Source: Granulosicoccaceae bacterium (lineage in GTDB: Bacteria > Pseudomonadota > Gammaproteobacteria > Granulosicoccales > Granulosicoccaceae). From it: a stretch of 53,177 bases of DNA. The stretch lies in contig JAHDCO010000012.1 in assembly GCA_020629835.1 (NCBI GenBank), positions 1 through 53,177 on the forward strand, written 5' to 3'. Position 1 is the first letter of the stretch; each line of letters starts with the position of its first letter. The translations under genes and the position numbers were made by a program. The notes beneath the pieces were generated by a model, which was not told the origin of the DNA, ran no database searches, and was given only the letters and a program-made list of their open reading frames with translations. Below are positions 17,116 to 30,553 of this stretch, one piece after another.

Positions 17116-17192
17116 GGCTACATAGCTCAGTTGGTTAGAGCACAACACTCATAATGTTGGGGTCCCTAGTTCGAATCTAGGTGTAGCCACCA
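17116..17192 (+). tRNA. tRNA-Met, elongator (anticodon CAT); integration target
   Basis: A 77-nt cloverleaf with encoded CCA: acceptor GGCTACA/TGTAGCC, anticodon stem CAACA/TGTTG with loop CTCATAA (anticodon CAT), T loop TTCGAAT. The body resembles E. coli elongator tRNA(Met) rather than the initiator or the lysidine tRNA(Ile). The 3' 46 bases plus 5 downstream bases are duplicated at 30503-30553, so the gene is the attachment target of the element and remains intact. Confidence 0.95.
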
Positions 17193-17197
17193 TTTTT
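17147..17197 (+). repeat. attL: tRNA-proximal copy of 51-bp direct repeat
   Basis: Runs from inside the anticodon loop of tRNA(Met), through the T arm and CCA, to five T residues beyond it. It is identical base for base to 30503-30553; identity stops at both edges (C versus A before, T versus C after). This is the typical core of a tRNA-targeting integrase. Confidence 0.92.
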
Positions 17198-17611
17198 TCC
17201 TTTTAAATCAACCATATAAGTTCAGATAAGATTTTTTCTGATACTTGCTTCTGAGCTGGGCCACCTATGGGCCACCAGCGAACAATCTCTTGTACTAGCC
17301 TAACGCCGCCATACTCAAAAGGTACTGTGAGAGCTAGGGCAGTAATTCCACAGTTTCCTCGCTCTGAATCGTTCGAGAGGTATAGCGGCTCTCAAACGTC
17401 CAGCCAGCCTGCCATCTAGGTCTAGCTATCCATTACTTCGCACCACCATTTATGAAACAGCTTAGATTATATGATTCGTGTTTCAGGCTAGAGCGATTAA
17501 AGTTCGATCCAAGGGCAGGTGTGCGGCTTGGTATGCAGATTTCCGTACAAAGTCCGTGGTGTGGCTCGGGGAGGGGGTAGTTCTATGTATCGCATTCAGT
17601 TACCCCGTGTT
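17198..17611. other. Non-coding left end of the element
   Basis: About 410 bp between attL and the first cargo gene stop. Apart from the arm-site repeats, I see no convincing gene: the plus-strand open frame at 17478-17669 lacks a ribosome site and any recognisable pattern. It probably serves recombination (attL arm region) and transcription end for the cargo operon. Confidence 0.5.
17257..17276 (+). repeat. Candidate integrase arm sites, attL side (TGGGCCACC x2)
   Basis: Two direct copies of TGGGCCACC at 17257-17265 and 17268-17276, 60 nt inside attL. Three more copies in the same orientation lie inside attR. Repeats shared only by the two element ends are what arm-type binding sites for the N-terminal integrase domain look like; the role is inferred. 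Confidence 0.6.
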
Positions 17612-18079
17612 TCAAACCACCTCTGTATCCGCAAACTCTCGTCTCAAAAACCTAACTGCCTGCCCGTAAGCAGGTCCCTCAAGCCCTGAAATCGTATGGT
17701 GCTCAATATCGATGTGGGTACCTAATTTACTTGTCCAATTGCCATTTGGAATTTGTCTAGAGGCGTGGGTAACAACATTTTCACTGGCATAAATGACAAC
17801 CTTTTCAATTCCAGCTTCATGCTCACCATCGGCACATTTCTCGTATCCGAGGCTTCTGAATAACTCTAAGAAAGCGTAAATTGTTGTACGTTTGGGGATT
17901 TCTGATGGCCAGTAATCAGTGGGTCTATCACCAGGCCACCACCATCGGGTGTCGTCTCCAGCAGCCCATGCGATGCAATTGTAACGATTTGTCATCGGGC
18001 TAGTTGCTAAATAGCCCTCGCTCATCAGATTCGGAAACGGTTTTGAAAACGAGTGTGCCGATGGTGGGCCGCTAGACAT
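17612..18079 (-). CDS. Cargo protein A: conserved unknown, possible papain-like fold
   Basis: The 155-aa product carries a dense conserved-looking core: YNCIAWAAGDDTRWWWPG, YWP, SLGYEKC, EAGIEKVVIYA, THASRQIPNGNWTSKLG and DIEHHTISGLEGPAYG. I recall this pattern from uncharacterised small proteins (DUF7689-like), but cannot confirm it. Cys35, His105 and Asp124/His127 are spaced like the Cys-His-Asp/Asn order of NlpC/P60-papain-type hydrolases; that is inference. It is last in a three-gene minus-strand operon, 9 nt after cargo protein B, at the tRNA-proximal cargo position of the element. Confidence 0.75.
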   Translation of the reverse strand: MSSGPPSAHSFSKPFPNLMSEGYLATSPMTNRYNCIAWAAGDDTRWWWPGDRPTDYWPSEIPKRTTIYAFLELFRSLGYEKCADGEHEAGIEKVVIYASENVVTHASRQIPNGNWTSKLGTHIDIEHHTISGLEGPAYGQAVRFLRREFADTEVV

Positions 18080-18088
18080 CTAGATGGA

Positions 18089-18565
18089 TTAACTCAGGTA
18101 GTTATTTTCTCTGGCCCAATCCAGCCAAATATCGGCAATGACATCGATTCTTCCGTAATCATCTTTACCGATCTCTGGAGGTTCTTGCCCGATGGAGCTC
18201 AAAATTGCTTCTATGGCTTGAAACCAGTGAGCTGAAGTCTGCTCCAGATCTTCGAATATCAAAGGAAGTGCTTCTTGACCCAATGCGATTATCGCGAGGT
18301 AATTCTGATCACTCAGTATTTCGTCTGAAGATGATGAGAACATCGTTTGCGCTTTCCAACTATCCGAAAGCTCAAGAAACTTTGTTTTTAGTGGGGTATC
18401 TGCAAAGTCCGCATACATGCCCGTACTGAACGCAAAACGTGGGCCAGAAACTGAGTGTGAGTTTCGAGCAACAGGAAACGAATTCAGCCCTGCGGGTACA
18501 GGTAGAGGTTGGTGTATCACGGTAGCTGTTTGTAGTATCAAAGCTGCATAACCATAACTATTCAC
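18089..18565 (-). CDS. Cargo protein B: conserved unknown
   Basis: The 158-aa product is not assigned to a function. The C-terminal 110 residues look like a compact conserved domain: FLELSDSWKAQTMFSSSSDE, YLAIIALGQEALPLIFEDL, HWFQAIEAI and a terminal WLDWARENNYL. The first 45 residues look like a poorly conserved extension and might indicate a later true start. Its start overlaps the stop of cargo protein C by 4 nt, so the two are translationally coupled. Confidence 0.75.
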   Translation of the reverse strand: MNSYGYAALILQTATVIHQPLPVPAGLNSFPVARNSHSVSGPRFAFSTGMYADFADTPLKTKFLELSDSWKAQTMFSSSSDEILSDQNYLAIIALGQEALPLIFEDLEQTSAHWFQAIEAILSSIGQEPPEIGKDDYGRIDVIADIWLDWARENNYLS

Positions 18566-18909
18566 GACTCACTTTCTATTTGTTTTTCCAAAGCATCGAT
18601 ATTCAAGCTGAGCCAATCCCTAAGCCCTCTGGCTGTTTGTAAATTCATTAAAATATCAGCCTCCACCTCTCTCACTATTCCATTTTTAGTCACGACTTTC
18701 TCGGGAGAATCACTCACGTGACCGTTATTGTCGATTTTGTGAACCGCTTGTTGAGGTAAGGCGGGTCTTTCGTTGTAAATAGACAGATGAATCAAGCCAG
18801 ATGGAGTGAGTCCACCGATACCACCGTCGGAGTGAATGGCACGAAAATGGTTGCTCTTAATATAGTGAAATGTGACAGACCTCTCTTCACCACTCATTGA
18901 GTCACTCAT
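18562..18909 (-). CDS. Cargo protein C: conserved unknown
   Basis: A 115-aa soluble protein without signal peptide or membrane helix. It shows FHYIKSNHFRAIHSDGGIGG, LTPSGLIHLSIYNERPALPQ and VREVEADILMN, with a helical C-terminal end. The beta-rich middle and acidic/hydrophobic patterns suggest a small folded domain; I do not know a function. It is first in the three-gene operon; an alternative start at the fifth codon (MSGEERS) is possible. The tight spacing of A, B and C implies they work together. Confidence 0.75.
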   Translation of the reverse strand: MSDSMSGEERSVTFHYIKSNHFRAIHSDGGIGGLTPSGLIHLSIYNERPALPQQAVHKIDNNGHVSDSPEKVVTKNGIVREVEADILMNLQTARGLRDWLSLNIDALEKQIESES

Positions 18910-18990
18910 ACAACTTCGCCGCCGTTATCTCCTTGTGGGGATTGTAGCACCCTGCTATGTACAAGGCGCTGGACCATTCAATAAAGAGGT

Positions 18991-19344
18991 TCATGCCCCA
19001 CCCGTCACCGTCCCAGCGGCCTCTACCGAAAAGAACTGATTACCCCGCCTTTCTAACAGCCCTTGCTTCCTGAGCTCATTCTGCAATTCACGGCATAGCT
19101 GAGCACCTACCCCATACCGTTTAGATGCCACCCTGATAGATAGCTGCTGAATGTCACCCGCCTTCAAATCTGCCTGCATCGCTTTAAGTGCCTTGTTGTA
19201 TCGCTTGCGTTCAGATGGCTTGTACTGACTTCGCCGCCCCTGCGTTACCTGACGGCTTTCAGAATGGCGGCTCGGTGCTTTTTTTCGGGTGCGCTCCCTT
19301 TTGCTGTAGAACGCTTCACCGAAGATGCCACTGTGCCACGCCAA
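18991..19344 (-). CDS. Winged-helix-like domain, probable -1 frameshift extension
   Basis: Open frame of 117 codons overlapping the end of the upstream membrane-protein gene by 100 nt. It lacks a credible own start: the first possible codon is a TTG without ribosome site, and the first ATG is at codon 55. From about residue 45 it reads like a winged helix (LSIRVASKRYGVGAQLCREL ... KQGLLERRG). The overlap holds a canonical A AAA AAG slippery site in exactly the frame needed to enter it (see 19233-19299). It is best read as the C-terminal 95 residues of a 338-aa transframe protein rather than an independent gene. Confidence 0.65.
   Translation of the reverse strand: MAWHSGIFGEAFYSKRERTRKKAPSRHSESRQVTQGRRSQYKPSERKRYNKALKAMQADLKAGDIQQLSIRVASKRYGVGAQLCRELQNELRKQGLLERRGNQFFSVEAAGTVTGGA
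19233..19299 (-). promoter_or_regulatory. Candidate programmed -1 ribosomal frameshift signal, dnaX-like
   Basis: Read on the minus strand: an SD-like AGGGAG (19294-19299), 9 nt, then the heptamer A AAA AAG (19278-19284) in the zero frame of the membrane gene (GAA AAA AAG), a 6-nt spacer, then GCCGCC (19266-19271) pairing with GGCGGC (19233-19238). Inside that stem is a second hairpin, CTGA/TCAG with a 6-nt loop. The zero-frame stop TAA (19245-19247) lies within the structure. These are the three elements of the E. coli dnaX frameshift site, with near-identical spacing. Confidence 0.75.
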
Positions 19345-20006
19345 GCCATCGCCCCAAACAGCATAGACAAGCTGATAGGTATGGCGCTCATCAGCACCCC
19401 AATACCGAACGCTAGATTACTTTGATTCAATCCGAATGGAAGCTCACGAAAAGCCTGCGCGGTGGTTGATACGTCCAGTGAGTTAAGTTCACGTTGATAC
19501 TGATTGAGCCTGCGTTCTGCGGTTGCAATATCCTGAACAACCTCTCTGCGTCTTTGGCCCCAATCCCCAGGCATACCGTTCAGAGTTGCCTGTAACGACT
19601 CTATGCTTCGTTCAGTGCGAGCGATGTTTCGTGCTAATTGCTGCGCTTGTGGGCTTTCATAGTTCTGGCTCTGGGTGGCTGTGAGCATGTTGCCGTTGAA
19701 TGACAATTGACTGGTGCTGATAGATGCCAGCTCGGTAAATACCACCACCGATAAGGCAACCAGAATGATAAACGGCGGCATCTTCGCCCGTATCGCCTGT
19801 GAGAGCGTCATTATCAGAACTTGGCTACCAATCAATGCCGATGCTACCCCCATTATCATCATTACCTTCAACATACCCTCGCCCATTGTTTCGTGGACAA
19901 ACATGCCGAACTGAGTGATTGAGGTAGCCAAACAAAGGCCCGAAACGATAAAACCCGCCGATGCTATGCCGGTGGATACACTACTGCTAGACTTGGAATT
20001 GCTCAT
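19245..20006 (-). CDS. Four-helix membrane protein with periplasm/cytosol helical domain
   Basis: A 253-aa zero-frame product with predicted membrane helices at about 12-33, 45-68, 77-97 and 197-222, and a charged helical region (118-178, with ARTERSIESLQ and ERRLNQYQRELN) between helices 3 and 4. There is no signal peptide and no family that I recognise; phage- and plasmid-borne membrane proteins often have this layout. The basic tail (KRSTAKGSAPEKKHR) contains the slippery codons. With a -1 shift after Lys243 the protein continues into the winged-helix-like frame for 338 aa in total. ATG 20006 has GGAT 9 nt upstream. Confidence 0.75.
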   Translation of the reverse strand: MSNSKSSSSVSTGIASAGFIVSGLCLATSITQFGMFVHETMGEGMLKVMMIMGVASALIGSQVLIMTLSQAIRAKMPPFIILVALSVVVFTELASISTSQLSFNGNMLTATQSQNYESPQAQQLARNIARTERSIESLQATLNGMPGDWGQRRREVVQDIATAERRLNQYQRELNSLDVSTTAQAFRELPFGLNQSNLAFGIGVLMSAIPISLSMLFGAMAWRGTVASSVKRSTAKGSAPEKKHRAAILKAVR

Positions 20007-20415
20007 AGATCACATCCGTATATGTGGTTGATTGGAAAGTCGCCCGATCCCGATTGCCGTCGGTATGAGCGCGTCTTTCATGGTGCAGACTTTGTGCCTG
20101 CCCTGTGATCTGTTTGCGGCCTGTGTTGGTTTTGGTTGAATCTCTCTTGCGGGTGTGTTGGTTAATTGTTTGCTAAAACAACGGCTTAAAGCATCACACC
20201 GCTTTCCAAATTTTCGGTGATTTGCAGGTAGGGTGCCGGTCTGTGTAGGCGCTTTTTACAGCCAAGTTCTGTGGCCTAATGACCTGAATCACAAATCTGT
20301 ATTCCACTTGCTAACTTGTAAATTCTTTTCTTTTATTCAACTAACTAACAGTTTTACTAGTTTGCCCCTGATCTGCTTGAATTAGACTGAAGCGGTCTCA
20401 TGGGGAGCTGAAACC
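20007..20415. other. Intergenic region between divergent element genes
   Basis: About 400 bp between the minus-strand membrane gene and the plus-strand gene at 20416. It becomes AT-rich toward the right side (20300-20370). It must hold promoters for both directions; I see no clear consensus boxes, iterons or RNA gene. Confidence 0.4.
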
Positions 20416-20790
20416 GTGGTAAGCGCAAGCGATATAAAACCTGCTGAAAAGAAAAGTCTAATCGGAACTTTTATATTGGTTTTTCTATTCGGTCCGCTCG
20501 GTGCTCTTTATGTAAGCGCTCCTTTCGCCGCAATTTATCTAGTGGTCGCAATTGGCGTTGCCTTGGTAACGGGTGGCTTCGGCGTTATTTTAGTTTGGCT
20601 GGTTTATCTTCTTTACGCGCCTGAGATGGTTAGTCGCCAGAACAAAGCTGAAAGAGAAAGAGTTCGTTTAGCCAAGCTGGAAATTGAAGAACAAGCGAAC
20701 AAACTGGCTCTAGAAGAAAAGCGTCATCAGGAGTTGCTTGATGCGGTGAAGCAGGGGAAAATCAAAAACATATCTGATATAGAATTTTGA
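20416..20790 (+). CDS. Small two-helix membrane protein with coiled-coil tail
   Basis: A 124-aa product with two hydrophobic helices (about 15-37 and 40-70, rich in Gly, Ala and Val) followed by a basic/acidic helix (NKAERERVRLAKLEIEEQ) likely to form a coiled coil. A GGGGAG ribosome site lies 9 nt before GTG 20416. No family recognised. It stands alone on the plus strand and converges with the gene at 20839. Confidence 0.7.
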   Translation: MVSASDIKPAEKKSLIGTFILVFLFGPLGALYVSAPFAAIYLVVAIGVALVTGGFGVILVWLVYLLYAPEMVSRQNKAERERVRLAKLEIEEQANKLALEEKRHQELLDAVKQGKIKNISDIEF

Positions 20791-20798
20791 AAGGTTCA

Positions 20799-20821
20799 GC
20801 CCCACCTGAGATGGCTGGGGC
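20799..20821. terminator. Hairpin between convergent genes
   Basis: GCCCCACC pairs with GG-C-TGGGGC around a TGAGAT loop, with one bulge. No T-run follows on either strand, so termination is suggested only by its place between two convergent stops. Confidence 0.4.
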
Positions 20822-20838
20822 CATACTTTCCGGTCGAA

Positions 20839-21393
20839 TCAGTGAGTAGGAATCTTTGCGAGTTCACTGATGCCCTTTATGACTCCGGCCTGAGTCCATA
20901 AGGCAAATGCGCCGCCCGACACTGTCTCATCACTGAGTCCAGCATCGTGCTCAATCGCTACTTCCAACACCCGCGCAACCGCTCTACATTGATCCAGCAT
21001 GTTTGAATAAAGATGTGCGGGTATAGCCGGAAGCTCTTTCTTACCCATCCACTCGCTGAGGTAATGATCCAAGAACTGCGGTTTATCCCGCTTTTCCTCA
21101 TCAGTATCAGCTTCCTGCAAATCACAAGCTAGATCATGCAATTCATCCAAAGCAACTCGGCAAGCCTTCACCAAATACAGAAACTTCTCTCTATCTCTTT
21201 CAATTGGCGCTGATGAAATGTTGGTGAGTTCGTCGGTCAGGTTAACCACTGTATTTATCTTTGCCCCAAACAACACCATCGCGTGGGTTGCGTCCCTGAG
21301 CGCAAGTTGCCCATCACCGGTACCCAATACATTAGGCAAACTCCTGTCATTGGTCTGGTTTTCCAATACAGGGTTACTGGATTCTATAGTCAT
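20839..21393 (-). CDS. Hypothetical element protein
   Basis: A 184-aa soluble, mostly helical product (MTIESSNPVLENQ... to AKIPTH). The frame is open to 21465, but ATG 21393 has a GAGAGC element and leaves a clean 22-nt gap to the upstream gene, so it is preferred. It contains an acidic helical stretch (HDLACDLQEADTDEEKRD). No motif recognised. It is second of a two-gene minus-strand operon. Confidence 0.65.
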   Translation of the reverse strand: MTIESSNPVLENQTNDRSLPNVLGTGDGQLALRDATHAMVLFGAKINTVVNLTDELTNISSAPIERDREKFLYLVKACRVALDELHDLACDLQEADTDEEKRDKPQFLDHYLSEWMGKKELPAIPAHLYSNMLDQCRAVARVLEVAIEHDAGLSDETVSGGAFALWTQAGVIKGISELAKIPTH

Positions 21394-21415
21394 GTCGTGT
21401 GCTCTCCGTGGTTCG

Positions 21416-21964
21416 TTATTGCTGCTGTGGTGATTGCTGAGCGTAGATACCGATGGCGTCATCAATCAGGTGGCCCACCGTCGAAACATGGCCGTCAACA
21501 CTGCACACGGCGTCGTATAACGTGCCTGCGGTTAGTGTCTGCGCTTCTGCCGCCAAAACAACATTAAGCAACTCAGTAACGGCGCTGGCTCGATCTAGCG
21601 TAGTCCCCACTAAGTCAGCATCGAACCCATGCCAAGTAAGTGCTTCGGCTCTATCTTTTATTAAATCCTCTGGACGATCCGGCCATGTGGAAGTCTGCCC
21701 ACCGATTGAACTGCACACGCCTTTCAATGCGCCTATCTCATTATTCAGCCGTGTGGTTAGCAGTTGCAGGTACAAACGGCATTCATCGCTTACAACTGCT
21801 TTAGTGCCTGCTTCGGTATCACAGGCATTCAGTAGCGGGTGCCGGATCTCTGCCAAAGTAGCGTCACAATCAACAACCATCTGTCTGGCTGTGGATAGCT
21901 TCGACGGCAAGTTAATTTCAGGCAGATTAAGACGGGCGGTTAATGCGGGTGATTGGTGTGTCAT
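21416..21964 (-). CDS. Hypothetical element protein
   Basis: A 182-aa soluble product with mostly helical, low-charge sequence (for example LLTTRLNNEIGALKG and ASAVTELLNVVLAAEA), ending in a Gln-rich tail. ATG 21964 is chosen because GGAGCACAAAAC precedes it. No family recognised. It is first of the two-gene operon; a terminator-like hairpin lies 110 nt upstream on the same strand. Confidence 0.65.
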   Translation of the reverse strand: MTHQSPALTARLNLPEINLPSKLSTARQMVVDCDATLAEIRHPLLNACDTEAGTKAVVSDECRLYLQLLTTRLNNEIGALKGVCSSIGGQTSTWPDRPEDLIKDRAEALTWHGFDADLVGTTLDRASAVTELLNVVLAAEAQTLTAGTLYDAVCSVDGHVSTVGHLIDDAIGIYAQQSPQQQ

Positions 21965-22383
21965 GTTTTGTGCTCCGATTAGTTTAGGTGCCAAGGGTGT
22001 TGATAATCTGCCAACAGACAGTCCCAGTTCCTCACGGATACCGGCACCCTCGACTCAAAATATCTTGCACAAAAAAACCGCATATCTTTCGTGTGCGGGT
22101 AACGCTGTTGGATTGGGTTATCAAGCCCTGACGAAACTATAGCCTACTGTTTGAGACTGTGTTGTACTGAATTTGAACAGTGCTCCAGGCGGTGAAAAGT
22201 CCGATACAAGATTGAGGGGTTTCGCAACTTGACCGAATCATTATGGTTGAACGCTACTGAGTCTCAAAATGGCAGATTACGGTTACTGCGGAGTGTGAAC
22301 AAATGTGACTCGGATTAATGCAGCTTAGTTTCTATGTTTCTAGATAGGCAGAATTTGGGACAAATTACGTTGAGACCAAGCCA
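21965..22383. other. Intergenic region with minus-strand hairpin
   Basis: About 420 bp between divergent genes. It contains the terminator-like hairpin at 22071-22098. The plus-strand open frame that crosses the neighbouring gene into this region shows no protein character and is rejected. Nothing else is supported. Confidence 0.4.
22071..22098 (-). terminator. Terminator-like hairpin upstream of the 21964 operon
   Basis: On the minus strand CCGCACA (22092-22098) pairs with TATGCGG (22078-22084; one G-T pair) around a 7-nt loop, and seven T follow. No minus-strand gene is seen just upstream, so it may end a small RNA, attenuate the operon leader, or insulate it from the train to the right. 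Confidence 0.6.
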
Positions 22384-22830
22384 GTGATTAAGAATTTCGC
22401 CACAACCTTTCTAGCTGTACTCCTCGTGACAGGCTGTGCCTCAAGTAGTAAACCAACCCCTAGCCCACAATACAAACCCCCAGTACGCGCCAAGCTAAAT
22501 CCTGTTTATAAACAGGTTCAAATTCCTCAAACAGAACACTTAATTGACAGAATTGAGTTAGGGATGAACCGCGAGCAAGTCAGAAAAATAATGGGTAAAC
22601 CAGACAAGATAGACCTATGTGGTTATTCTAATTGTGACAACCGTACTGACACCTGGACTTATAACACCATCAAGTGTTTTGCACCAGATACAAGACCATC
22701 TGTAAGAACCACTTACAGCGGTAGTTGTTCCATTGAAGTGAATCACGCTACGCAAAAAGTTGTTGCTTGGGATAAGGAACGAAGCAAAGCAATTGTTATG
22801 CAACGACAGTGCGTGGCCAACTGTCCATAA
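22384..22830 (+). CDS. BamE/SmpA-like lipoprotein
   Basis: A 148-aa product with signal and lipobox LLVTGC (Cys near residue 18), predicting a lipidated envelope protein. The block DRIELGMNREQVRKIMGKPD is the typical start of a SmpA/OmlA-like (BamE fold) domain. It has additional Cys residues (CGYSNCDN, KCFAPD, SCSIEV, RQCVANC) that could form disulfides in the periplasm. Start is GTG 22384 with weak GAGACC upstream. It lies within the mobile element; its role there is unknown. Confidence 0.75.
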   Translation: MIKNFATTFLAVLLVTGCASSSKPTPSPQYKPPVRAKLNPVYKQVQIPQTEHLIDRIELGMNREQVRKIMGKPDKIDLCGYSNCDNRTDTWTYNTIKCFAPDTRPSVRTTYSGSCSIEVNHATQKVVAWDKERSKAIVMQRQCVANCP

Positions 22831-22867
22831 AAATATAGAATTCTGAGTCAACAGTTAATGGAAAATT

Positions 22868-23074
22868 ATGAGCGAAAAAGACTTTAGTGACGAACTAAAA
22901 GAAAAAAAGAAACTTAGTGAAAAACGTATGCCTGAGGCGATGTTGATGGCTGGGCTAGCGCTAGGGATGTTATTTATCGGGCCGTTCGTTCACCCAATAT
23001 TTGCTTTATTAGGTTTCGGGTTATTGATCTGGTCGTTTTTGTGGGGAGATGGAGAGGTGGGGAAAAAAAAGTAA
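22868..23074 (+). CDS. Small two-helix membrane protein
   Basis: A 68-aa product: a highly charged N-terminus (SDELKEKKKLSEKR) followed by two hydrophobic helices (about 24-41 and 44-60) and a Lys tail. It follows the lipoprotein gene by 37 nt in the same direction, so the two may be co-transcribed. No family recognised. Confidence 0.6.
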   Translation: MSEKDFSDELKEKKKLSEKRMPEAMLMAGLALGMLFIGPFVHPIFALLGFGLLIWSFLWGDGEVGKKK

Positions 23075-23336
23075 GTTGAATAATTAACGTCAGCTGGGGT
23101 TAGTACGACATCAAATAACACAAATCCTCCAACGTTCCGAAATGAGAAGATCACTAAGTTGCAGTTCGTCAGAATAGCTCAAGTGGAGTAAAACCCATTC
23201 TCTCAACTCTAGCACTAAATCGGTTTGTAACTCAGAAAGGAGCAGAGGCAGTGATTAAACTTCCCATACGCAGTTAATCGGTATATCAGGTCTTTATTTC
23301 ATCTGACACTGTTTGTCGAATGAAGTCCAGATTTCT

Positions 23337-23555
23337 TCACATAAAAATTTCTTCACATAAAAATCGCTCATAGGCTTTCGATTCTAAGCCTACGACAACT
23401 CGGTAAATCTTCCGAATACTGTGCAATGAGTTTACTGTGCATTCGGATAAGTTGAGTTTTTCAGCAGCAGCTCTTAACACTTTCTGCAAATTTTCAGAAG
23501 ATTCTAAATCTGTTCTGACTCCCTGCTCAAGATTGGCAATCTTCGCAGCCACCAT
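23337..23555 (-). pseudogene. Remnant of ParB-like protein, HTH part
   Basis: A 72-codon fragment. MVAAKIANLEQGVRTDLE ... AAAEKLNLSECTVNSLHSIRKI matches the central part of phage/plasmid ParB-like proteins, where an AAKIANL helix precedes an HTH that ends in SxxTVxxxxxI. The usual nuclease/ParB N-terminal domain and the long C-terminal part are missing. Together with the fragment just upstream it suggests a decayed partition- or plasmid-like locus. It may still be translated, but I consider it a remnant. Confidence 0.55.
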
Positions 23556-23572
23556 TCCGCGCTACGATTCGT

Positions 23573-23992
23573 TTATATGGCGTCTACGGGGTTAAGCGAC
23601 AACACAAAACTTAAAGCGACGTAGCCAATGGCTTCGGCTTGCTTGCCTGCGCGTTCTACTGTGGCGCGACTGGTGCCGTGTTCCGCAGCGATTGATTCAG
23701 CCGTAGATTGCTTTTCAATTCCCTCATTTTGAGGTGTTTGAATGGCGCGATTATCGTTGCCTACAGGCGCGCCCTGAGCTTTCTTCCGCGAGTTATACAA
23801 CCGCCCAACAAACAACCGGAAGTCATCAGGCGATAAATTCCGCCGACCTAGCTGGTTAACTAGCATCCAGTCGATGACAGCCTCGCGATTGGGGAAAGCC
23901 TTGTGCTCAGTCTCGAACGGCAAGTCATGTTCTGTGCATATATTGTGGCGGTTATGGCCGTCGATGAGAATGTCACCCCAAAGAATAAGAGG
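23573..23992 (-). pseudogene. 5'-truncated ParB/partition-like protein
   Basis: The frame is open from 23992 (just after an in-frame TAA) but has no ATG or GTG; TTG 23923 would cut into a conserved motif. The translated start ILWGDILIDGHNRHNIC is the strongly conserved ParB-like core (DGHNR), followed by EAVIDWMLVNQLGRRNLSPD and an HTH (SIAAEHGTSRATVERAGKQA). The normal N-terminal 40-60 residues before the DGHNR motif are absent in all three frames upstream, so a rearrangement probably removed the 5' end. Confidence 0.65.
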
Positions 23993-24277
23993 TTAAACGC
24001 GGCTTGCCTCGGGACTAAAAAAAGTCTTGGTTTTACCAAATGTGTCGGTAGGTATTTGGATACTACCGACGGACGATAGCCCTGAAAGCCTGTTATACAT
24101 GCCTGACAGCCGACATGAAATTGGTGTTGCAAATATCTCTCACAAAAAGCTCCTCGCAAATCACCCCGATCAGATACCCCCGGGGGGGGAGTACCTTTTA
24201 TTTTTTTACAGGCAGCCATCAAAGCTAAACGGGTGAGGTAATCAGTAGCGGGGCAGGGTGTGAAGAAAAGCGGCCAG
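23993..24277. other. Non-coding segment with inverted repeat and C5G8 tract
   Basis: It separates the ParB remnant from the gene at 24278. It holds a perfect 8-bp inverted repeat, GTCGGTAG-N11-CTACCGAC (24044-24070), overlapping a second repeat, CCAAAT-N12-ATTTGG (24036-24059), and a C5G8 homopolymer junction near 24176-24188. The plus-strand open frame 24027-24236 is not convincing as a gene. Confidence 0.5.
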
Positions 24278-24622
24278 TCATCCAGCCGCAACATTCCAGA
24301 TCGCTGATGACCAACTCTCGCCAGCCTCAACCCGCCATATAACCCGTTGGGAAAGCCTGCGGTAATCGGCCCTTAATTTGCCTCGGTGATCGAGCAAACG
24401 AGCATCACGCGCTTCACCCAACAGTCGTACCGTGTTCATCTGTCTTTGCATCCTAGACAGCCCGCGCGGTTTGTATTGCGGCATAGACAGCGTGTGAAGC
24501 TCGACAGCGATAGTTAACCGTTGAGCCTCACTCATATGATGCGCACCCCCAACAGCGTCCATGCTGTCAGGGAATACGATGCGGTGGTTAAACTCGTGTG
24601 CCATTAGCAAACGCTCGCTCAT
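24278..24622 (-). CDS. Hypothetical element protein, paralogue-like of its neighbour
   Basis: A 114-aa soluble product. The C-terminal part, DHRGKLRADYRRLSQRVIWR ... GESWSSAIWNVA, matches in spacing the C-terminal part of the next upstream gene (DNGTLKPDYQLIYDRAVLDL ... GKSPEQVIAQAL), suggesting a shared small domain. Start may be ATG 24622, inside the upstream gene, or ATG 24604. No function recognised. Confidence 0.6.
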   Translation of the reverse strand: MSERLLMAHEFNHRIVFPDSMDAVGGAHHMSEAQRLTIAVELHTLSMPQYKPRGLSRMQRQMNTVRLLGEARDARLLDHRGKLRADYRRLSQRVIWRVEAGESWSSAIWNVAAG

Positions 24623-24875
24623 GCAATTCTTTGGCGGTTGCTTCTGGTGCCAATGCCTGGGCGATTACCTGTTCAGGACTTTTGCCAATCTTCAAATCTA
24701 AAACGGCGCGATCATAAATTAGCTGATAATCCGGTTTTAACGTGCCGTTATCTAAAATGTCGTGATCGTTGGCGGCATCTTTCGCCGCCACTGATTCCGC
24801 CACGCTTGTTTTTCCAGATTGGTGATTGCCGTACTGGATAATGGCAGCGAGTTTACTTGTTGATAATGTGGTCAT
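24588..24875 (-). CDS. Hypothetical element protein
   Basis: A 95-aa product with an Ala/Asp-rich N-terminus and a short helical C-terminal domain (TLKPDYQLIYDRAVLDLKIG, SPEQVIAQALAPEATAKELH). It overlaps the following gene by 35 nt. HQSGKTS superficially resembles part of a P-loop, but the context does not support an ATPase. Confidence 0.6.
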   Translation of the reverse strand: MTTLSTSKLAAIIQYGNHQSGKTSVAESVAAKDAANDHDILDNGTLKPDYQLIYDRAVLDLKIGKSPEQVIAQALAPEATAKELHERAFANGTRV

Positions 24876-24946
24876 TATGTTCTCGTGATATTTAATAAGT
24901 AATTGGTGAGTAGGTGGGCATCGTTGCCCGACAACTTTATCCGGCT

Positions 24947-25486
24947 TTACGCCGCATCTTCTAGCAGTCCTCTTGCTTCAAAGATTTCGGATGGTTCGAT
25001 CGGATCATCAATCCACCAATCGAGTTCTTGAACCGCTTTCGTGTACTCATCACGTCTAGGCTCATAGCCAATTAAGTCGATGAGGGTTGAATCCCAGTAG
25101 CCACCATTCAATGCACTCATTGCTGCCAATTGTTTTCTAACTAAGGCCCAATCAAGTTCATCTTTGAGCTTGGCATATAACTGCCTGCGCTCGGTGTTAG
25201 CGTCACGCTCAGCCTGCCTGTGCTGCTCAATTGCATAAGCATGGCCTTGCTTTAGTTTCTCCGTCAACGCTGCAATCCGGCGCTCGGTTGATTTCAGCTC
25301 AAAGTTGCATCGTTCGAGTGATTCGGCAATGACGCCCGATTGCTTTTGAAACTTTTCAAAGCTCAAATCGGTGTTGGCTTCGAGTTCAACTAATTGGCTT
25401 TCCGCTGCGTCTTTTTTTTCCTGCAAAGTTTGAAGGGCCTCAGTGGTTTCGTGATGTTGTTGAATTAAATCTTTTAAGGTGCTCAT
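24947..25486 (-). CDS. Coiled-coil element protein
   Basis: A 179-aa product. Residues about 1-110 form a long coiled coil (QQHHETTEALQTLQEKKDAA, LKSTERRIAALTEKLKQG), followed by a small C-terminal domain with LNGGYWDSTLIDLIGYEP and WWIDDPIEPSEIF. Start ATG 25486 (MSTLKD) is preferred over 25522 because of the AAGAG element and to avoid overlap with the preceding gene. Function unknown. Confidence 0.7.
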   Translation of the reverse strand: MSTLKDLIQQHHETTEALQTLQEKKDAAESQLVELEANTDLSFEKFQKQSGVIAESLERCNFELKSTERRIAALTEKLKQGHAYAIEQHRQAERDANTERRQLYAKLKDELDWALVRKQLAAMSALNGGYWDSTLIDLIGYEPRRDEYTKAVQELDWWIDDPIEPSEIFEARGLLEDAA

Positions 25487-25506
25487 ATTTTTTATTTCTC
25501 TTGTGG

Positions 25507-25755
25507 TTAGGCGGCGCGGCATATTTCAGCCGTGAACGCATAGGTGCCAGGTACAGGGGGTTTTACATAAGCCTCAAGTGCAAATTTGTTGAGGAATTTC
25601 ACGTCTGTTGCTCGGATTGATTCTGGGAAAATAATCACTTTCCATTCAATCATTAGGACGCCCGTGGGATCTTCGAGTTTTAGCAGATGCCAATACGGGC
25701 CATTGAGACATAAGGCGTCAAAGCCATCGGAAGGGCTAACAATTGTGTTGTTCAT
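25507..25755 (-). CDS. Hypothetical element protein
   Basis: An 82-aa product with beta-rich composition (GPYWHLLKLEDPTGVLMIEW, KVIIFPESIRATDVKFL). No motif recognised. It lies in the minus-strand gene train between the coiled-coil gene and the docking-domain gene. Confidence 0.6.
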   Translation of the reverse strand: MNNTIVSPSDGFDALCLNGPYWHLLKLEDPTGVLMIEWKVIIFPESIRATDVKFLNKFALEAYVKPPVPGTYAFTAEICRAA

Positions 25756-25827
25756 TTAATACTCACTTTTCTGTTAGTAGTTAGGCGCGGCGACGGGATT
25801 GCCACCGCTTGTCATTGCCTGAAGAAA

Positions 25828-26037
25828 TCACTGGATTAGCTCTTTATTTGGTTTGCAAAGTATTTCGGCATCCACTGCGTCAGCCGCTTTGATGTCTGCG
25901 ATTAGCGCTGGCTTGTTTCTGATAATCCATTGCTTGAGTTCATCATCAAGCTTTGAGAACTGGACAATCTCAATGCGGTCATCGTCCAGCACCGTTAGCT
26001 GGAATCCCCATTCACGAAGAGTCTGTGCGGCGTTCAT
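25828..26037 (-). CDS. TubC N-terminal docking-domain-like protein
   Basis: A 69-aa product whose pattern (AAQTLREWGFQLTVLDDDRIEI ... LDDELKQWIIRNKPALIADIK in outline) is that of the TubC_N docking fold: a short helix, two strands, then ELKxxIxxxKxxLIxxL. In phages and plasmids such small proteins sit before replication ATPases. Its start overlaps the stop of the DUF3631 gene by 4 nt, so the two are translationally coupled and may interact. Confidence 0.7.
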   Translation of the reverse strand: MNAAQTLREWGFQLTVLDDDRIEIVQFSKLDDELKQWIIRNKPALIADIKAADAVDAEILCKPNKELIQ

Positions 26038-27530
26038 AGGGCACCTGCGTCTTGTTTTTTACTTTCACCGGCATTTACTGTCTCAAAGTCCGGCACAACG
26101 TCACAAGCCCCGTCGTTACTGGCTCTCAGCGTTTTTAAGTCCGGCACATTCCTGTCATTTGTGCCGGATTGAATTTGGCTGATAGGTTGATCTGCTGCGG
26201 GTTGTGCCGGTGTGCCGGATAATTTGGGGGTATCGACACAATATCTTTGATACACCTCGTCAAACTTGTCTTTTTTGTACCCTTTGGCTGTCGCTTTACT
26301 GTTTGAAAATCGGCGTGATCCTGATACCAATGAAAACGGTTTAAGAAACTTGCTCAATGTGTAAGGGTTGATCCCTTTATCGCCACGCATTGAGGGCCAA
26401 GGTTTATCTGATAGGTCATTAAGTGCTTCGCAAAGATCTTTACTGAATATCGTTTTATTCCACTGCCTATCTGTCGCAATCTGGTTAATGTCTTTCAGCA
26501 GGGTCAGAGCCAAATCGTCATCATTACTATCTGTGTTCGTCAACACCTTCGCTGCGGTCCTTGCCAATTCGGGCCACTCTCCACCAATCACGTCAGCAAT
26601 CGTTATGAGTGCCCGCCAGTTGTCCTCGGCGCGGTCATTATTCAAGCAAGGCACGGCTGGGTCACATTCGAGAATCGCCGCTCTATTGTCCTCATGCCAG
26701 CGGACGCATTGACGGCGTAGCTTTTGATTATCTGCTCGTATGTCAATGGGCAACCGTTCTACAGTCTCGCTCGATAACTTGCGCATGAGCGGTACTGTGA
26801 TGCTCCGGTCTTGAATAGTCGGACTGAACGTACCGATCCTAAAAAGTGCCATCGGCGTCCAGGTTGAAAACATGGTCGGCTTGCGGTTGCCTGCATCGCC
26901 TTCAACACGTAAAACTGTGGCACCCGATCTTGTATGCCCACAATTGATGATGCCGCCAAGTTCAGAATTGCCATCAACAAAGGTATCGCACTCATCAATT
27001 AGTAATGTGGGCTGGCAATCATCTATCACCCGAAACAGCACCGCTGCCGTGACATTACTTGCGCTGAGAACTCTATTAGCAATTGCCGCCAGAACTTCGA
27101 GCAGTGTGGTCTTGCCGCATCGTGGTTGCGGCGACACTACCGATAGTTTTGGGAATAATCGGTGCTCATTAATGGTATATGTTGCAATCGCCCACAAAGT
27201 AAGCGCAACGTCTGCATAAGGTGGCAATGAACAGTAGCGGTTGAACAAACGTTTAATCGAGAATGCCAGCTCATCACCTGCAACCGGATCGGCCCACGCT
27301 GCTATACCGTCCAGCATTTCGCTTGAGCAATCAGTAACATCAGTGCTTTGTTCTTTAGCTCTCGCTCTATCTTTAACAAGTTTATCTAGCGCCGTAACTG
27401 ATATATCAATCTGTTTGGCTAGATCACTTCTCTCGCGCTGATACTCTATTGGATGCAAACCAGCGGCACGACTTATTAAACGATCAGCCTCATCTATTGC
27501 TAGCAGCGGCTTTGATTCAGATTCACTCAT
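26034..27530 (-). CDS. DUF3631-type P-loop ATPase (replication-associated)
   Basis: A 498-aa product. Walker A is PQPRCGKTTLLE (about 135-146) and Walker B is TLLIDECDTF (175-184), followed by GGIINCGHTRSGATVLRV and FSTWTPMALFRIG, the arrangement of DUF3631 proteins found at the C-terminus of phage and plasmid primase/helicases. No primase polymerase domain is fused in front; the first 100 residues are helical. It may need a separate primase or act as an element helicase or regulator. It overlaps both neighbours by 4 nt. Confidence 0.8.
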   Translation of the reverse strand: MSESESKPLLAIDEADRLISRAAGLHPIEYQRERSDLAKQIDISVTALDKLVKDRARAKEQSTDVTDCSSEMLDGIAAWADPVAGDELAFSIKRLFNRYCSLPPYADVALTLWAIATYTINEHRLFPKLSVVSPQPRCGKTTLLEVLAAIANRVLSASNVTAAVLFRVIDDCQPTLLIDECDTFVDGNSELGGIINCGHTRSGATVLRVEGDAGNRKPTMFSTWTPMALFRIGTFSPTIQDRSITVPLMRKLSSETVERLPIDIRADNQKLRRQCVRWHEDNRAAILECDPAVPCLNNDRAEDNWRALITIADVIGGEWPELARTAAKVLTNTDSNDDDLALTLLKDINQIATDRQWNKTIFSKDLCEALNDLSDKPWPSMRGDKGINPYTLSKFLKPFSLVSGSRRFSNSKATAKGYKKDKFDEVYQRYCVDTPKLSGTPAQPAADQPISQIQSGTNDRNVPDLKTLRASNDGACDVVPDFETVNAGESKKQDAGAL

Positions 27531-27724
27531 GCAGCCGACTCCAACAAAACCGCATCATCCATTCGCAGGGCAATCAGCTCGCAACGAATGTCGTGCAGCG
27601 ATTCAGGCTCAAGATTGAAAGCAGCTTCATTCAGTAATCGAGCGCGGGTCGTATCGTTGGATACGTGGGCAAACTCAGCTAAAAACATCACTAAGCGGTC
27701 GTAATTGGCTTGAAGGCGACTCAT
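27527..27724 (-). CDS. Hypothetical element protein
   Basis: A 65-aa helical product (MSRLQANYDRLVMFLAEFAH). It is coupled by 4-nt overlaps to the gene on either side, which supports its being real. No function recognised. Confidence 0.6.
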   Translation of the reverse strand: MSRLQANYDRLVMFLAEFAHVSNDTTRARLLNEAAFNLEPESLHDIRCELIALRMDDAVLLESAA

Positions 27725-28065
27725 TGACGACCACCAATTAAAGTGGTTGAACGAACGCCGTACTTATCAACGGATGCCATCACTCCGGTTGATAGGTCAA
27801 TGACGATTGCACGCAAGTCTGGAATTACTAACAAGGCCAGCGAATCAACACCGTGCAGTTTCTTACCCTGCAATTGATAGAGTTGACCTGGCTCAATGTG
27901 GGCTGGAGGTTCGCCCCTCATGTCTCTAACGAGTTGAATCGCCAAGCCTGTTAATGGTTTGCGTTTTTTATAAAGACGCTGCATTGATTTGATCTGCGCG
28001 TCAGTGGTTTGAGCTTTGTCTGATTTTGTGAACGGCACAGAAAGCCGTGTGTTATCATTCGACAT
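27721..28065 (-). CDS. Hypothetical element protein
   Basis: A 114-aa product with a basic N-terminal half (SMQRLYKKRKPLTGLAIQLV) and a beta-rich C-terminal half (LLVIPDLRAIVIDLSTGVMA). No family recognised. It starts the tightly coupled block that leads into the DUF3631 gene. Confidence 0.6.
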   Translation of the reverse strand: MSNDNTRLSVPFTKSDKAQTTDAQIKSMQRLYKKRKPLTGLAIQLVRDMRGEPPAHIEPGQLYQLQGKKLHGVDSLALLVIPDLRAIVIDLSTGVMASVDKYGVRSTTLIGGRQ

Positions 28066-28090
28066 ATATTGAATACCTTTATATGTAAAC

Positions 28091-28128
28091 GCCCTGCAAG
28101 CTCTGGTCAGCTTTTGGGGCTTTTTTTT
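28091..28128 (+). terminator. Plus-oriented terminator-like hairpin in a minus-strand gene train
   Basis: GCCC...GGGGC (28091-28094/28116-28120) encloses AAGCT/AGCTT with a 6-nt loop, followed by eight T on the plus strand. The flanking genes all run on the minus strand, so it may block antisense transcription, or the structure may act in the minus-strand leader of the gene at 28065. Confidence 0.45.
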
Positions 28129-28146
28129 GGGTGAGGGGTTTAGGCT

Positions 28147-28425
28147 TTAAGCCGCGGTTTGTGGCAGTTGAACTGAGGCCATACGGTGCGCAATGGCTGA
28201 TTCAGTTGCCACTTCAAAACGTCGTCCACGCTTAATCCAGACAAGGTTATGCCTGCCTGTGCATTTCCAAACATTGAGAGTCTTGGGGTTTTCAATTCCG
28301 AAGAATTTTTGGGCTTGCTCTAAGGAAAGGCTAGCCGGTAGGGTTTCTGCCTCGCATTCGCACAGCTGAGCTAGTTCGCGACGGGTGGCTGATTCAATTG
28401 CACTTAAATAATCGTTGCTTGTCAT
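28147..28425 (-). CDS. Small DNA-binding protein, AlpA/excisionase-like
   Basis: A 92-aa product. LSLEQAQKFFGIENPKTLNV, then WKCTGRHNLVWIKRGRRFEVA, then an acidic/Ala C-terminus. This reads like a winged-helix MerR/Xis-type domain, in which a helix-turn-helix is followed by a short wing with basic residues. Its place two genes from the integrase suits an excisionase or a regulator. The assignment is tentative. Confidence 0.55.
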   Translation of the reverse strand: MTSNDYLSAIESATRRELAQLCECEAETLPASLSLEQAQKFFGIENPKTLNVWKCTGRHNLVWIKRGRRFEVATESAIAHRMASVQLPQTAA

Positions 28426-28476
28426 TCGTTTGTTCCGAGTTAATTCTCAGGACAAACGATAAATACTCGTTAAACC

Positions 28477-29016
28477 TCAGTCACCGTCAACAATCAATCC
28501 CATTATTGAAGGCAAATGTTTTGGGTTGTTATCTATTGATGCATCATTCGGAATTACCCCTTGGGCAATGTCATGCATATACTTGGCTTGTGCCCCATGT
28601 TTACGATAAGCGCGCTCCACTGTTGATTTCGACGCGCCCGTATCTTTAATCACTTGTTCTATGGCGTTGGTTTTATTTAATTTTTTGCGCCTCATTAGGC
28701 TTTCAACTGAGAATGCGATCTCCCTTAAATTGCCAGTTGTGCCTTTTGTGCGGCCTGATTTCCTACTTGTGATAGGTAGGTGCTTATTAATCAGCTTATC
28801 GCGGTTTGCGATGCCTCGTCCTTCGGATTGATTCACTTCTGCGAGTATGTCCTTAAATGACTGAGCAAGATATTCCATAGTCTCGGGTGCTTCGCGTCCA
28901 GACTCATGCGCACAGATGAATCGCCACATATGCCATAAGCCCTTGGGCATTTCATCGTCATATCCATTAGCGCGGTCAAATATATCTGGTTCGGCTGGTA
29001 GAGGCTCTTTGCTCAT
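28477..29016 (-). CDS. Helix-turn-helix element protein
   Basis: A 179-aa product. Near residues 120-155 there is a resolvase-like HTH (KTNAIEQVIKDTGASKSTVE, RAYRKHG). The N-terminal half is acidic and Trp/His-rich (MPKGLWHMWRFICAHESG) and unassigned. The start overlaps the integrase stop by 4 nt, so it is made with the integrase and may regulate it or help direct recombination. Confidence 0.65.
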   Translation of the reverse strand: MSKEPLPAEPDIFDRANGYDDEMPKGLWHMWRFICAHESGREAPETMEYLAQSFKDILAEVNQSEGRGIANRDKLINKHLPITSRKSGRTKGTTGNLREIAFSVESLMRRKKLNKTNAIEQVIKDTGASKSTVERAYRKHGAQAKYMHDIAQGVIPNDASIDNNPKHLPSIMGLIVDGD

Positions 29017-30311
29017 TTAACCGCCTCCAACTGGACTACCTTCTTATCCGTCCAATCAATACCGCCTAGTTCTAACAATTTGTCAGTAATTCGTTGCTGG
29101 TATTTTCGCTTCTGGTCGATTGGCAGTGCGGTGTAGTGTCTCGCCGTTACATCGTTCTTGTCGGGTGCGTGGTTCATCAGCGCCTTACGCATTGCATCAG
29201 GTATTTCACACTGCCATATGGCTAGATTGCTGAACGATCTGCGAAGGTCATGCACTGTGACGCTGGTTCCAGCTCGATCATTGACACTCGCGACCGCTTT
29301 TTTTGGTTCTTCAATGTGACCAGACCGACCAGTGCCAGGAAATACGAAATCCGTTGTATTCCCTTTGTTTCGATTGCCGATCAGTTCGAGCATGTAATCG
29401 CTCATCGGAATATCAATAGGCTTACCGTTTTTCGTATCGACCGAATCCAGACGAATAATGCGCCGCTTGATGTCGATTTGATCCCAGCGAAGTGAAGCCG
29501 CTTCACGCCGCCGCATACCAGTGAACAAAACCAGTTTCAGGTAATCGCGGGTGATTGGGCTTTGCAGCTCGTCAACTGCTGACAACCATGTAGCGATCTG
29601 GTCAGGCTCTAGGTATCCAGCTCGGGGCTTCTCTTCGACCATTTGAATGCCTGCAAACGGGTTGTAGATAAATTCGCCACTTTGCTGCTTTCGGCTTATC
29701 TCAATCTGGTGGGCGTAGGCAGCACCAAGACACCGTACCGCTGAGTTCGCGCTGCTTACTGAATACTTTGATGCTTTGGAGTACCACGATTCGACCATGC
29801 TGGAATCGAGAGACTTGGCAGCCTTTCCAGCCCAGCCCCGAGCGGGTTTTGTGTATCGCTTTCCATTTGGTTTGGGCTTAGGGGTGTCTGCGGAAAAGTG
29901 TATTGCGAATGAGCGTTCATAGTTTCGGCGGGTGGTTTCCCGTATAGGTTTCTTCGCTCTGTTGGAAGCATGGTCTAAATACTGACTAAACACTTCCTGC
30001 AAACTCAGGCCCTTGGCTCGTGCGGCCTTTTTTTCCTGATTCGGGTCGATGCCATCGTTAAACGCTGCAATTAGGTTTTGCGCTCTTTGCCGCGCTTGTT
30101 CGATTGGGTAGGGGTACGTGGCGATTCTTACGCGCCGCTTTGTGCCGTTGACTTTCTTTTCTAGGTAGAAGGTTTTCGACTGTTGGCCGACTCTTAGCAC
30201 CAGCCCTTTGACGCTGGCTCGTGCGCCTGAATCTTTGTAGCTCACACGCCCTTGCTCGGGGTACGGTAGTGCTTCTATCGCGCTTTTGGTGAAGTTCAAT
30301 TCAGTTGCCAT
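29013..30311 (-). CDS. Tyrosine recombinase/integrase, DUF4102 arm-binding type
   Basis: A full-length 432-aa P4-like integrase. The N-terminal DUF4102 arm-binding domain has YKDSGARASVKGLVLRVG and an AFNDGIDP segment. The catalytic set is complete: Arg267 (TGMRRRE), Lys293 (DTKNGKP), His353/Arg356 (VHDLRRSF), His380 (LMNHAP) and nucleophile Tyr392 (ARHYTAL). It is transcribed from the attR end inward and heads the minus-strand gene train. Such integrases typically use the 3' ends of tRNA genes, which agrees with the duplicated tRNA(Met) end. Confidence 0.95.
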   Translation of the reverse strand: MATELNFTKSAIEALPYPEQGRVSYKDSGARASVKGLVLRVGQQSKTFYLEKKVNGTKRRVRIATYPYPIEQARQRAQNLIAAFNDGIDPNQEKKAARAKGLSLQEVFSQYLDHASNRAKKPIRETTRRNYERSFAIHFSADTPKPKPNGKRYTKPARGWAGKAAKSLDSSMVESWYSKASKYSVSSANSAVRCLGAAYAHQIEISRKQQSGEFIYNPFAGIQMVEEKPRAGYLEPDQIATWLSAVDELQSPITRDYLKLVLFTGMRRREAASLRWDQIDIKRRIIRLDSVDTKNGKPIDIPMSDYMLELIGNRNKGNTTDFVFPGTGRSGHIEEPKKAVASVNDRAGTSVTVHDLRRSFSNLAIWQCEIPDAMRKALMNHAPDKNDVTARHYTALPIDQKRKYQQRITDKLLELGGIDWTDKKVVQLEAVK

Positions 30312-30331
30312 CGTTCATCCTGTCTATGCGC

Positions 30332-30361
30332 TGGGCCACCCTGGGCCACCAATGGGCCACC
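30332..30361 (+). repeat. Candidate integrase arm sites, attR side (TGGGCCACC x3)
   Basis: Three direct copies at 30332-30340, 30342-30350 and 30353-30361, immediately upstream of the integrase start and 142 nt inside attR. They have the same orientation and sequence as the two copies near attL. Binding there could also repress the integrase promoter. Confidence 0.6.
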
Positions 30362-30502
30362 GCTCGGATTAACCGGCATTGCGTGACGTTAAACAGAATT
30401 ATACTTTAAGTAACTGAAATGAATGGATAAAGGGGTGTTTTATTGTATTTGGTTAATTTCAGATAACCGCACGTAAGTTATTGATAATTAAATGAGCGTA
30501 AA

Positions 30503-30553
30503 ACTCATAATGTTGGGGTCCCTAGTTCGAATCTAGGTGTAGCCACCATTTTT
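30503..30553 (+). repeat. attR: distal copy of the 51-bp tRNA(Met) end
   Basis: Perfect copy of 17147-17197, covering half of the anticodon loop through CCA plus five T. The 5' half of the tRNA is absent, so this is not a functional gene. It marks the right boundary of the element; sequence beyond it should be the original flank of tRNA(Met). Confidence 0.92.

Follow-up and report, generated by a model that had tools for sequence, protein, structure and literature searches.

Programmed -1 frameshifting at the heptamer A_AAA_AAG has been described in dnaX and in IS elements (PMC5009743, PMC4066793, PMC3711429). What, then, is the same heptamer doing near the 3' end of a membrane protein gene in a mobile element, at the very point where a second open frame overlaps the first? 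The question arises in a stretch of 53,177 nucleotides from a marine Granulosicoccaceae bacterium (GenBank assembly GCA_020629835.1, contig JAHDCO010000012.1), the whole of which we call the window. From the comparison of related genes we propose a dnaX-like programmed -1 ribosomal frameshift, which would yield two isoforms of a phage or element membrane protein, with and without a tail domain, and to which we give a probability of about 0.85.

The frame junction and its host element

The preliminary description, made from the letters of the window, had placed an in-frame A_AAA_AAG ten codons before the end of the gene, an AGGGAG 9 nt upstream of it, and a 6-nt spacer followed by a GCCGCC/GGCGGC stem with an inner hairpin; it gave 338 aa in place of 253 for the transframe product and no good start for the second frame. 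All of these stand (table 1). The zero-frame gene closes with GAA AAA AAG, ten codons and TAA, the spacer reads CACCGA, and the reading frames sum to 243 + 95 = 338 aa. Between the upstream stop and 60 nt past the zero-frame stop, the sole possible start in the -1 frame is a TTG lying 60 nt 5' of the heptamer. The hairpin is predicted to fold at -18.3 kcal/mol, with z scores of -2.4, -1.85 and -0.80 over 45, 60 and 80 nt, the three folding lengths tried. Folding at least as strong occurs at 3 of 352 sampled places of the stretch at 45 nt and at 21 of 347 at 60 nt.

Table 1. Features of the frameshift gene and of the element that carries it (window coordinates).
Feature	Position	Strand	Basis
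Integrative element, 13.4 kb, between 51-bp direct repeats	17147-30553		identical repeats; left one overlaps tRNA-Met
Attachment-site repeat, left, inside 3' part of tRNA-Met (gene 17116-17192)	17147-17197		51 bp identical
Attachment-site repeat, right	30503-30553		51 bp identical to left
Integrase-like protein (presumed), 432 aa, adjoining right repeat	29013-30311	minus	ORF and translation
DUF3631 protein of the element	26034-27530	minus	PF12307, E 2.9e-35
Zero-frame membrane protein, 253 aa, ATG start	19245-20006	minus	ORF list
SD-like AGGGAG, 9 nt 5' of heptamer	19299-19294	minus	sequence
Slippery heptamer A_AAA_AAG, in frame	19284-19278	minus	sequence; phase and heptamer common to 6/7 copies
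Predicted stimulatory hairpin, outer stem GCCGCC (19271-19266)/GGCGGC (19238-19233), inner helix	19233-19271	minus	fold
-1 frame extension, 95 codons + stop	18991-19278	minus	open frame; related -1 tails in five other copies
Winged-helix domain, tail residues 21-88	19015-19218	minus	AF2 model and VIA-align

The mobile-element setting, also part of that description, is seen in the identical repeats that enclose the gene. It lies toward the end of the element opposite the gene for a protein which, from its sequence features, we take to be integrase-like. The DUF3631 protein is presumably a replication-type ATPase. Other features of the window were recorded on reading: a DUF7689 protein (17612-18079, E 2.9e-41) between the frameshift gene and the left repeat; a 16-bp unit in 2.1 tandem copies within an ORF-poor stretch (23331-23364), which could be an iteron-like or regulatory site; and, upstream of the frameshift gene on the plus strand, opposite to it (20416-20790), a short protein that has membrane segments and ends in a charged tail. 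Two of the related loci described below (L008 and L017) likewise have a small gene of membrane type immediately before their frameshift gene, in these cases on its own strand. PADLOC gave no result with ten window proteins.

Conservation of the junction in related genes

All 48 genomes from the order, a single family of six genera, were searched with one profile for the membrane domain and one for the tail. Seven copies were recovered from six genomes, which belong to two genera: the window gene, L002 and L004 (both in genome G014), L003 (G010), L008 (G042), L016 (G040) and L017 (G036). Every copy comes from draft genomes of one family. A search of 143 related genomes with the single window protein, its own genome included, gave three matches besides the window, in two genomes. 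L004 is broken, with a stop codon within the membrane domain, a shortened A run and two parts that lack the -1 relation, and is treated as a seventh copy outside the count of six. This broken copy (L004/L013 1605-2694, G014:C173) lies near a tRNA-Thr gene, and its tail frame is intact. Matches L005-L007, L009, L014, L015, L018, L026-L031, L036 and L037-L039 are the same places again and were dropped from the counts. Among further matches, L019, from the order search, was rejected on reading as a long coiled-coil protein. Tail-profile matches L032-L035, from four Granulosicoccaceae genomes (L032 and L034 were read), and L071 were rejected as presumably IF-3-like, IF-3 being also the top match in one search. 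Another tail-profile match, L070, is a single, unrelated-looking ORF.

The preliminary description had pointed to homologues as the place where the signal should recur, and it does. In six of the seven copies an A_AAA_AAG lies in frame 8-10 codons before the zero-frame stop, with the tail domain in the -1 frame. In the order window, L002, L003, L008, L016 and L017, which we keep hereafter, the zero-frame tails measure 10, 8, 10, 9, 8 and 10 aa and the -1 tails 95, 85, 90, 135, 122 and 153 aa. Besides the window gene four are complete, and their membrane domains share 28, 28, 21 and 19% identity with that of the window; L016 has lost most of its membrane domain and kept the junction.

How often would such a heptamer be expected? 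Mechanical ORFs of at least 150 aa in the window and six loci, the family included, hold 13 in-frame A_AAA_AAG in 38,289 codons; with up to 12 codon places per gene this gives a chance of ~0.004 per gene and ~1e-12 for the five further genes. Furthermore, A_AAA_AAG encodes 14 of the 118 Lys-Lys pairs in the ORFs of the window and seven loci, five of these being the family's own sites; a control that takes the Lys-Lys pair as given (9/113 elsewhere) yields ~3e-6 for five further genes. Mechanical ORFs on both strands were counted, spurious ones included, and the chance figures are guides rather than exact probabilities, because the copies are related by descent.

The make-up of the A run bears on another way to the same protein outcome, namely transcriptional slippage, in which some mRNAs would be one base shorter or two longer. 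Runs of 6-7 A offer some ground for this, and the gamma product of Thermus dnaX is reported to arise by slippage on nine A (PMC3711429). Here, however, the run is just six A long in five of the six copies, and in every copy a G follows and the reading phase is unchanged, which is what slippage of tRNA-Lys on the ribosome requires. Since most runs are this short, G and phase are invariant, and an SD-like site and a hairpin would be purposeless in transcription, we regard transcriptional slippage as unlikely.

The second frame might otherwise be a separate overlapping gene, whose product, a small protein of DNA-binding type, would be made by re-initiation or translational coupling with no frameshift at all. 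At L016 and L017 an ATG of the -1 frame does overlap the zero-frame stop (ATGA), and at L008 one lies 51 nt after the heptamer start, shortly past that stop; because of these ATGs a free tail could be made by re-initiation from the three genes. In L002 and L003, however, the -1 frame is closed by a stop two codons 5' of the heptamer, and from that stop to 60 nt beyond the zero-frame stop it offers no ATG, GTG or TTG; in the window it offers the TTG alone. Coupling also leaves the conserved, in-phase A_AAA_AAG unexplained, and relatives elsewhere are single-chain fusions (below). We therefore hold coupled translation of two genes to be very unlikely as the general explanation. At L017 three products would be possible, since ATGATG overlaps the zero-frame stop. 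This locus (G036:C102; L023 9565-10511) encodes a membrane protein that has no coiled-coil hairpin, and its heptamer, RNA hairpin and tail are kept.

A programmed -1 frameshift would be expected to come with stimulatory signals, and SD-like motifs, picked after looking, occur 8-13 nt upstream of the heptamer in all six copies: AGGGAG (9 nt), AAGGG (9), AAGGAGG (13), AGAGG (10), GGAG (11) and GGGAG (8). Random places of the same stretch equal or exceed the strength of their anti-SD energies (-7.6 in the window) in 6.7, 4, 0.7, 22, 10 and 1.7% of cases, so that the signal is clear in three (L002, L003, L017), marginal in the window and weak in L008 and L016. The stem and its spacing, whose conservation the preliminary description had named as a check, recur in part. 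The main helix begins 6-7 nt after the heptamer in four of the six copies (6, 7, 6 and 6 nt in the window, L002, L008 and L016), 4 nt after it in L017, and is missing from L003; hairpin sequences differ between copies. Over 45 nt the z scores are -2.4, -2.6, +0.9, -3.5, -3.9 and +1.4, and the L017 hairpin appears only over at least 60 nt (z -3.0 at 60 nt). L003 has no hairpin and the weakest fold of 585 sampled places (45 nt), yet the strongest SD-like site. With copies treated as independent, the combined rank p is ~3e-5 (45 nt) and ~1e-4 (60 nt) for local folding, and ~2e-4 for anti-SD energy. PMC4066793 gives a usual distance of 5-8 nt for downstream structures and of 6-17 nt for upstream SD sites.

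The two protein parts and their relatives in other arrangements

In the AF2 model of the window tail (seven rows), three helices are followed by a beta-hairpin (H-H-H-beta-hairpin), with a mean pLDDT of 75 and 83-90 in the core. VIA-align superposes 64 residues on the DNA-bound GntR-family repressor VanR (6za3) with Z 9.6 and rmsd 1.5, in agreement with the winged-helix-like tail of the preliminary description. A GntR protein also ranks top in Foldseek, where no E-value is below 0.001. By sequence, no Pfam match exceeded the cut-off, and a PDB sequence search gave GntR domain matches at E 0.19 or worse. An FtsK-gamma identity was considered as well and is not claimed, the Z of 7.2 for 2ve9 being below those of the best GntR rows. 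On the model, the tail has a GntR-like winged-helix fold, and we infer from this shape that it may bind DNA.

The tails are also comparable in sequence. Compared with the L008 tail over 75 residues, identity is 72% for L016 and 69% for L017; L016 and L017 agree with each other at 60 of 75 positions. For the four gap-free tail pairs, pN/pS is 0.29-0.35 in the -1 frame vs 1.3-2.8 in the two other readings. By this measure the tail is under purifying selection in the -1 frame.

Hydropathy gives the membrane protein four transmembrane (TM) segments in the window, L002, L003, L008 and the more distant L020 (below), and three above the cut in L017. In an AF2 model of low confidence (mean pLDDT 58.7, with 80-89 in the coiled coil), TM3 and TM4 are separated by a coiled-coil hairpin. 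Basic residues follow TM2 and TM4, as judged by eye; given these and the four TM segments, the tail should be cytosolic. Pfam and PHROGs returned weak matches only for the membrane protein, mostly over the coiled coil; one of them, to a PHROG with the name transposase (E 0.0022), is a weak match of the coiled coil in the first-frame protein and was set aside.

We also looked for the two parts outside the family. The single window protein found no relative outside the window in a class sample of 369 genomes. A profile found three matches there, of which L020 was kept; L021 and L022 were rejected as chance matches of coiled coils, and we take them to be FliD-like and HemX-like, respectively. In L020 (genome G313, of another family) a single 323-aa frame holds both parts. 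Searched in one genome, L020 reaches E 2.3e-5 with the membrane profile; in an 18-protein search its E-values are 2e-8 for the membrane and 1.5e-5 for the tail profile, and hhalign probabilities are 79% and 62%. With L020 included in the profile, a phylum sample of 398 genomes led to G518, with three single-frame copies; L044 and L045, coiled-coil proteins, and L046, a short match out of place, were rejected on reading. Genomes around G518 have matches in 15 of 116, some at many places, where pieces of one gene are partly counted apart. Such many-place matches to the single-frame relative were noted in some genomes of the Microbulbifer-like group (G518 and G833), and the linkers vary between copies, including short basic repeats (L043, L047). 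A further single-frame protein is L064 (G864). Yet another relative of this kind runs across the numbering origin of NZ_CP098024.1, a Microbulbifer sp. MI-G plasmid with genes for a phage portal, capsid and terminase, and because of it the G518 group is probably Microbulbifer and kin.

The single-frame relatives (L020, L043, L047, L048, L064 and the Microbulbifer plasmid gene) are distant and lie outside Granulosicoccaceae. In the 18-protein search the E-values of the membrane profile run from 1e-13 to 1e-7 for the G518-group proteins, with 1e-3 for L064; in most of these proteins the tail profile falls weakly on the same place, and only L020 stands out. By eye, the Microbulbifer-type proteins and that of NZ_CP098024.1 have the same order of TM segments, coiled coil, linker and winged-helix-like C-terminus. 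They resemble the present family in the membrane domain but are encoded in one uninterrupted frame, and AAAAAAG is absent from the gene strand of L043, L047 and L048 and from the NZ_CP098024.1 gene. As judged from these open frames, such genes show that fusion elsewhere needs no frameshifting. For L062 (G850:C25) and L063 (G828:C2), in turn, tail matches in all frames of the locus, over ~1 kb or more downstream, stay at E 0.15 or worse; on that basis each is a membrane-only relative. Thus fused and membrane-only forms both exist, and in Granulosicoccaceae both would come from one gene. Several comparisons with mobile-element collections were negative: the window protein had no match in phages, plasmids or viral contigs, nor had the L008, L020 and L043 proteins in phages, the L020 protein in plasmids, or seven further queries in viral contigs.

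Homologues in one uninterrupted frame had been taken in the preliminary description as a sign of a sequencing error or a mutation in the A run, and so as a refutation of the frameshift signal. Such relatives do exist, outside the family, and together with the broken L004 they lend something to the idea that the split in the window is an error or the mark of a decayed pseudogene. Being distant and outside Granulosicoccaceae, while the split form recurs in separate elements, they do not imply an error in the window. Moreover, six copies from six draft genomes are split in the same way at the same heptamer, and purifying selection acts on the -1 tail in each of the four pairs compared. We consider error or decay extremely improbable.

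Proposed role and comparison with known systems

The other copies also lie in phage- or element-like surroundings. A second delimited element, in G036 (L017), spans ~8.6 kb, is likewise placed at a tRNA-Met gene and encodes a KilA-N/ANT antirepressor as well as an integrase; the far repeat follows closely on the end of its frameshift gene. In G042, genes for AlpA, a terminase small subunit, a head protease and a cold-shock protein precede the copy (L008), an arrangement like that of a phage or a phage satellite. For the G010 copy (L003), a gene of tail-fibre type lies upstream, and the region resembles a prophage and includes an O-like replication gene; ten large ORFs of its contig had no PHROG match. 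The element in G042 (L010 1-8880, G042:C40) has AlpA, terminase-small-subunit-like and head-protease-like genes, no other virion gene being recognised among those searched; it is possibly a phage satellite.

How might a frameshift serve such elements? On reaching A_AAA_AAG, the ribosome would be put under tension by the upstream SD-like site and, in most copies, by the downstream hairpin. Ribosomes that do not slip would meet the stop 8-10 codons on and release the short, membrane-only protein, and those slipping back one base would join the membrane domain to a domain of DNA-binding shape. Frameshifting would in this way set the number of copies with a cytosolic winged-helix tail, and the mixture of short and long subunits could hold the element DNA, or one of its control sites, at the inner membrane, which would serve replication or lysogeny control. 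The occurrence and frequency of slippage, DNA binding by the tail and the tethering of element DNA are what we infer in this scheme. We suggest, tentatively, a membrane anchor or sensor for element DNA, on four grounds: the fold of the tail, its predicted cytosolic location, the phage-type surroundings and, in two delimited elements, a gene position close to the far end. Equally speculative is the idea that recoding doses DNA-binding capacity: a four-TM coiled-coil assembly, a fixed share of whose subunits bear winged-helix arms, would act as an envelope-facing sensor or anchor holding the element DNA at the membrane, with a set ratio of arms to anchors. If true, this would be a membrane-tethered DNA-binding protein with its stoichiometry hard-coded by a recoding signal.

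To our knowledge, few bacterial -1 frameshifts have been demonstrated by experiment other than those of dnaX, phage genes and insertion sequences. In the present family the signal is kept between proteins with 19-28% identity to that of the window, and fused single-frame and membrane-only forms exist elsewhere, which offers a natural comparison: why would an element need both isoforms? The copies also form a small set of cassettes for the trade-off between SD-like site and hairpin, with L003 (strongest SD-like site, no hairpin) at one extreme. Surveys report 146 (PMC3711429) and 69 (PMC4066793) candidate clusters, and PMC4066793 lists many further frameshift candidates. Text searches for a membrane protein that gains a DNA-binding or winged-helix part by frameshifting returned either no paper or general frameshift papers and unrelated ones. 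A listing in the supplements of the surveys is possible, though the hosts of the present family are mostly uncultured.

For the tentative role as anchor or sensor, the nearest likeness is phi29 p16.7, a phage integral membrane protein described as binding terminal protein and DNA and organising replication (PMC4974454). The analogy concerns a membrane-bound phage protein only, and no relation by sequence or fold is claimed. We know of no frameshift in p16.7. As for the recoding signal, E. coli dnaX has A_AAA_AAG with an upstream SD-like site and a downstream hairpin, as here (PMC3711429). In E. coli dnaX, however, slipping gives the shorter product, whereas here it would give a longer one with an added domain. 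Window proteins gave no match to the DnaX/AAA+ clamp-loader family (E up to 1). In two-ORF dnaX genes and the OrfA-OrfB pairs of IS3 and IS1, a frameshift joins the first frame to a second that holds a separate domain, as proposed here; their products are clamp-loader subunits or transposases, and the second-frame protein matched neither, with no transposase family for it in Pfam or PHROGs. In E. coli copA, a -1 frameshift within a membrane protein gene yields a copper exporter and a copper chaperone from one gene. Like copA, the gene described here would be a frameshifted membrane protein gene with two products of different roles, but whereas the copA slip trims a transporter to a soluble chaperone, the slip proposed here would add a winged-helix domain.
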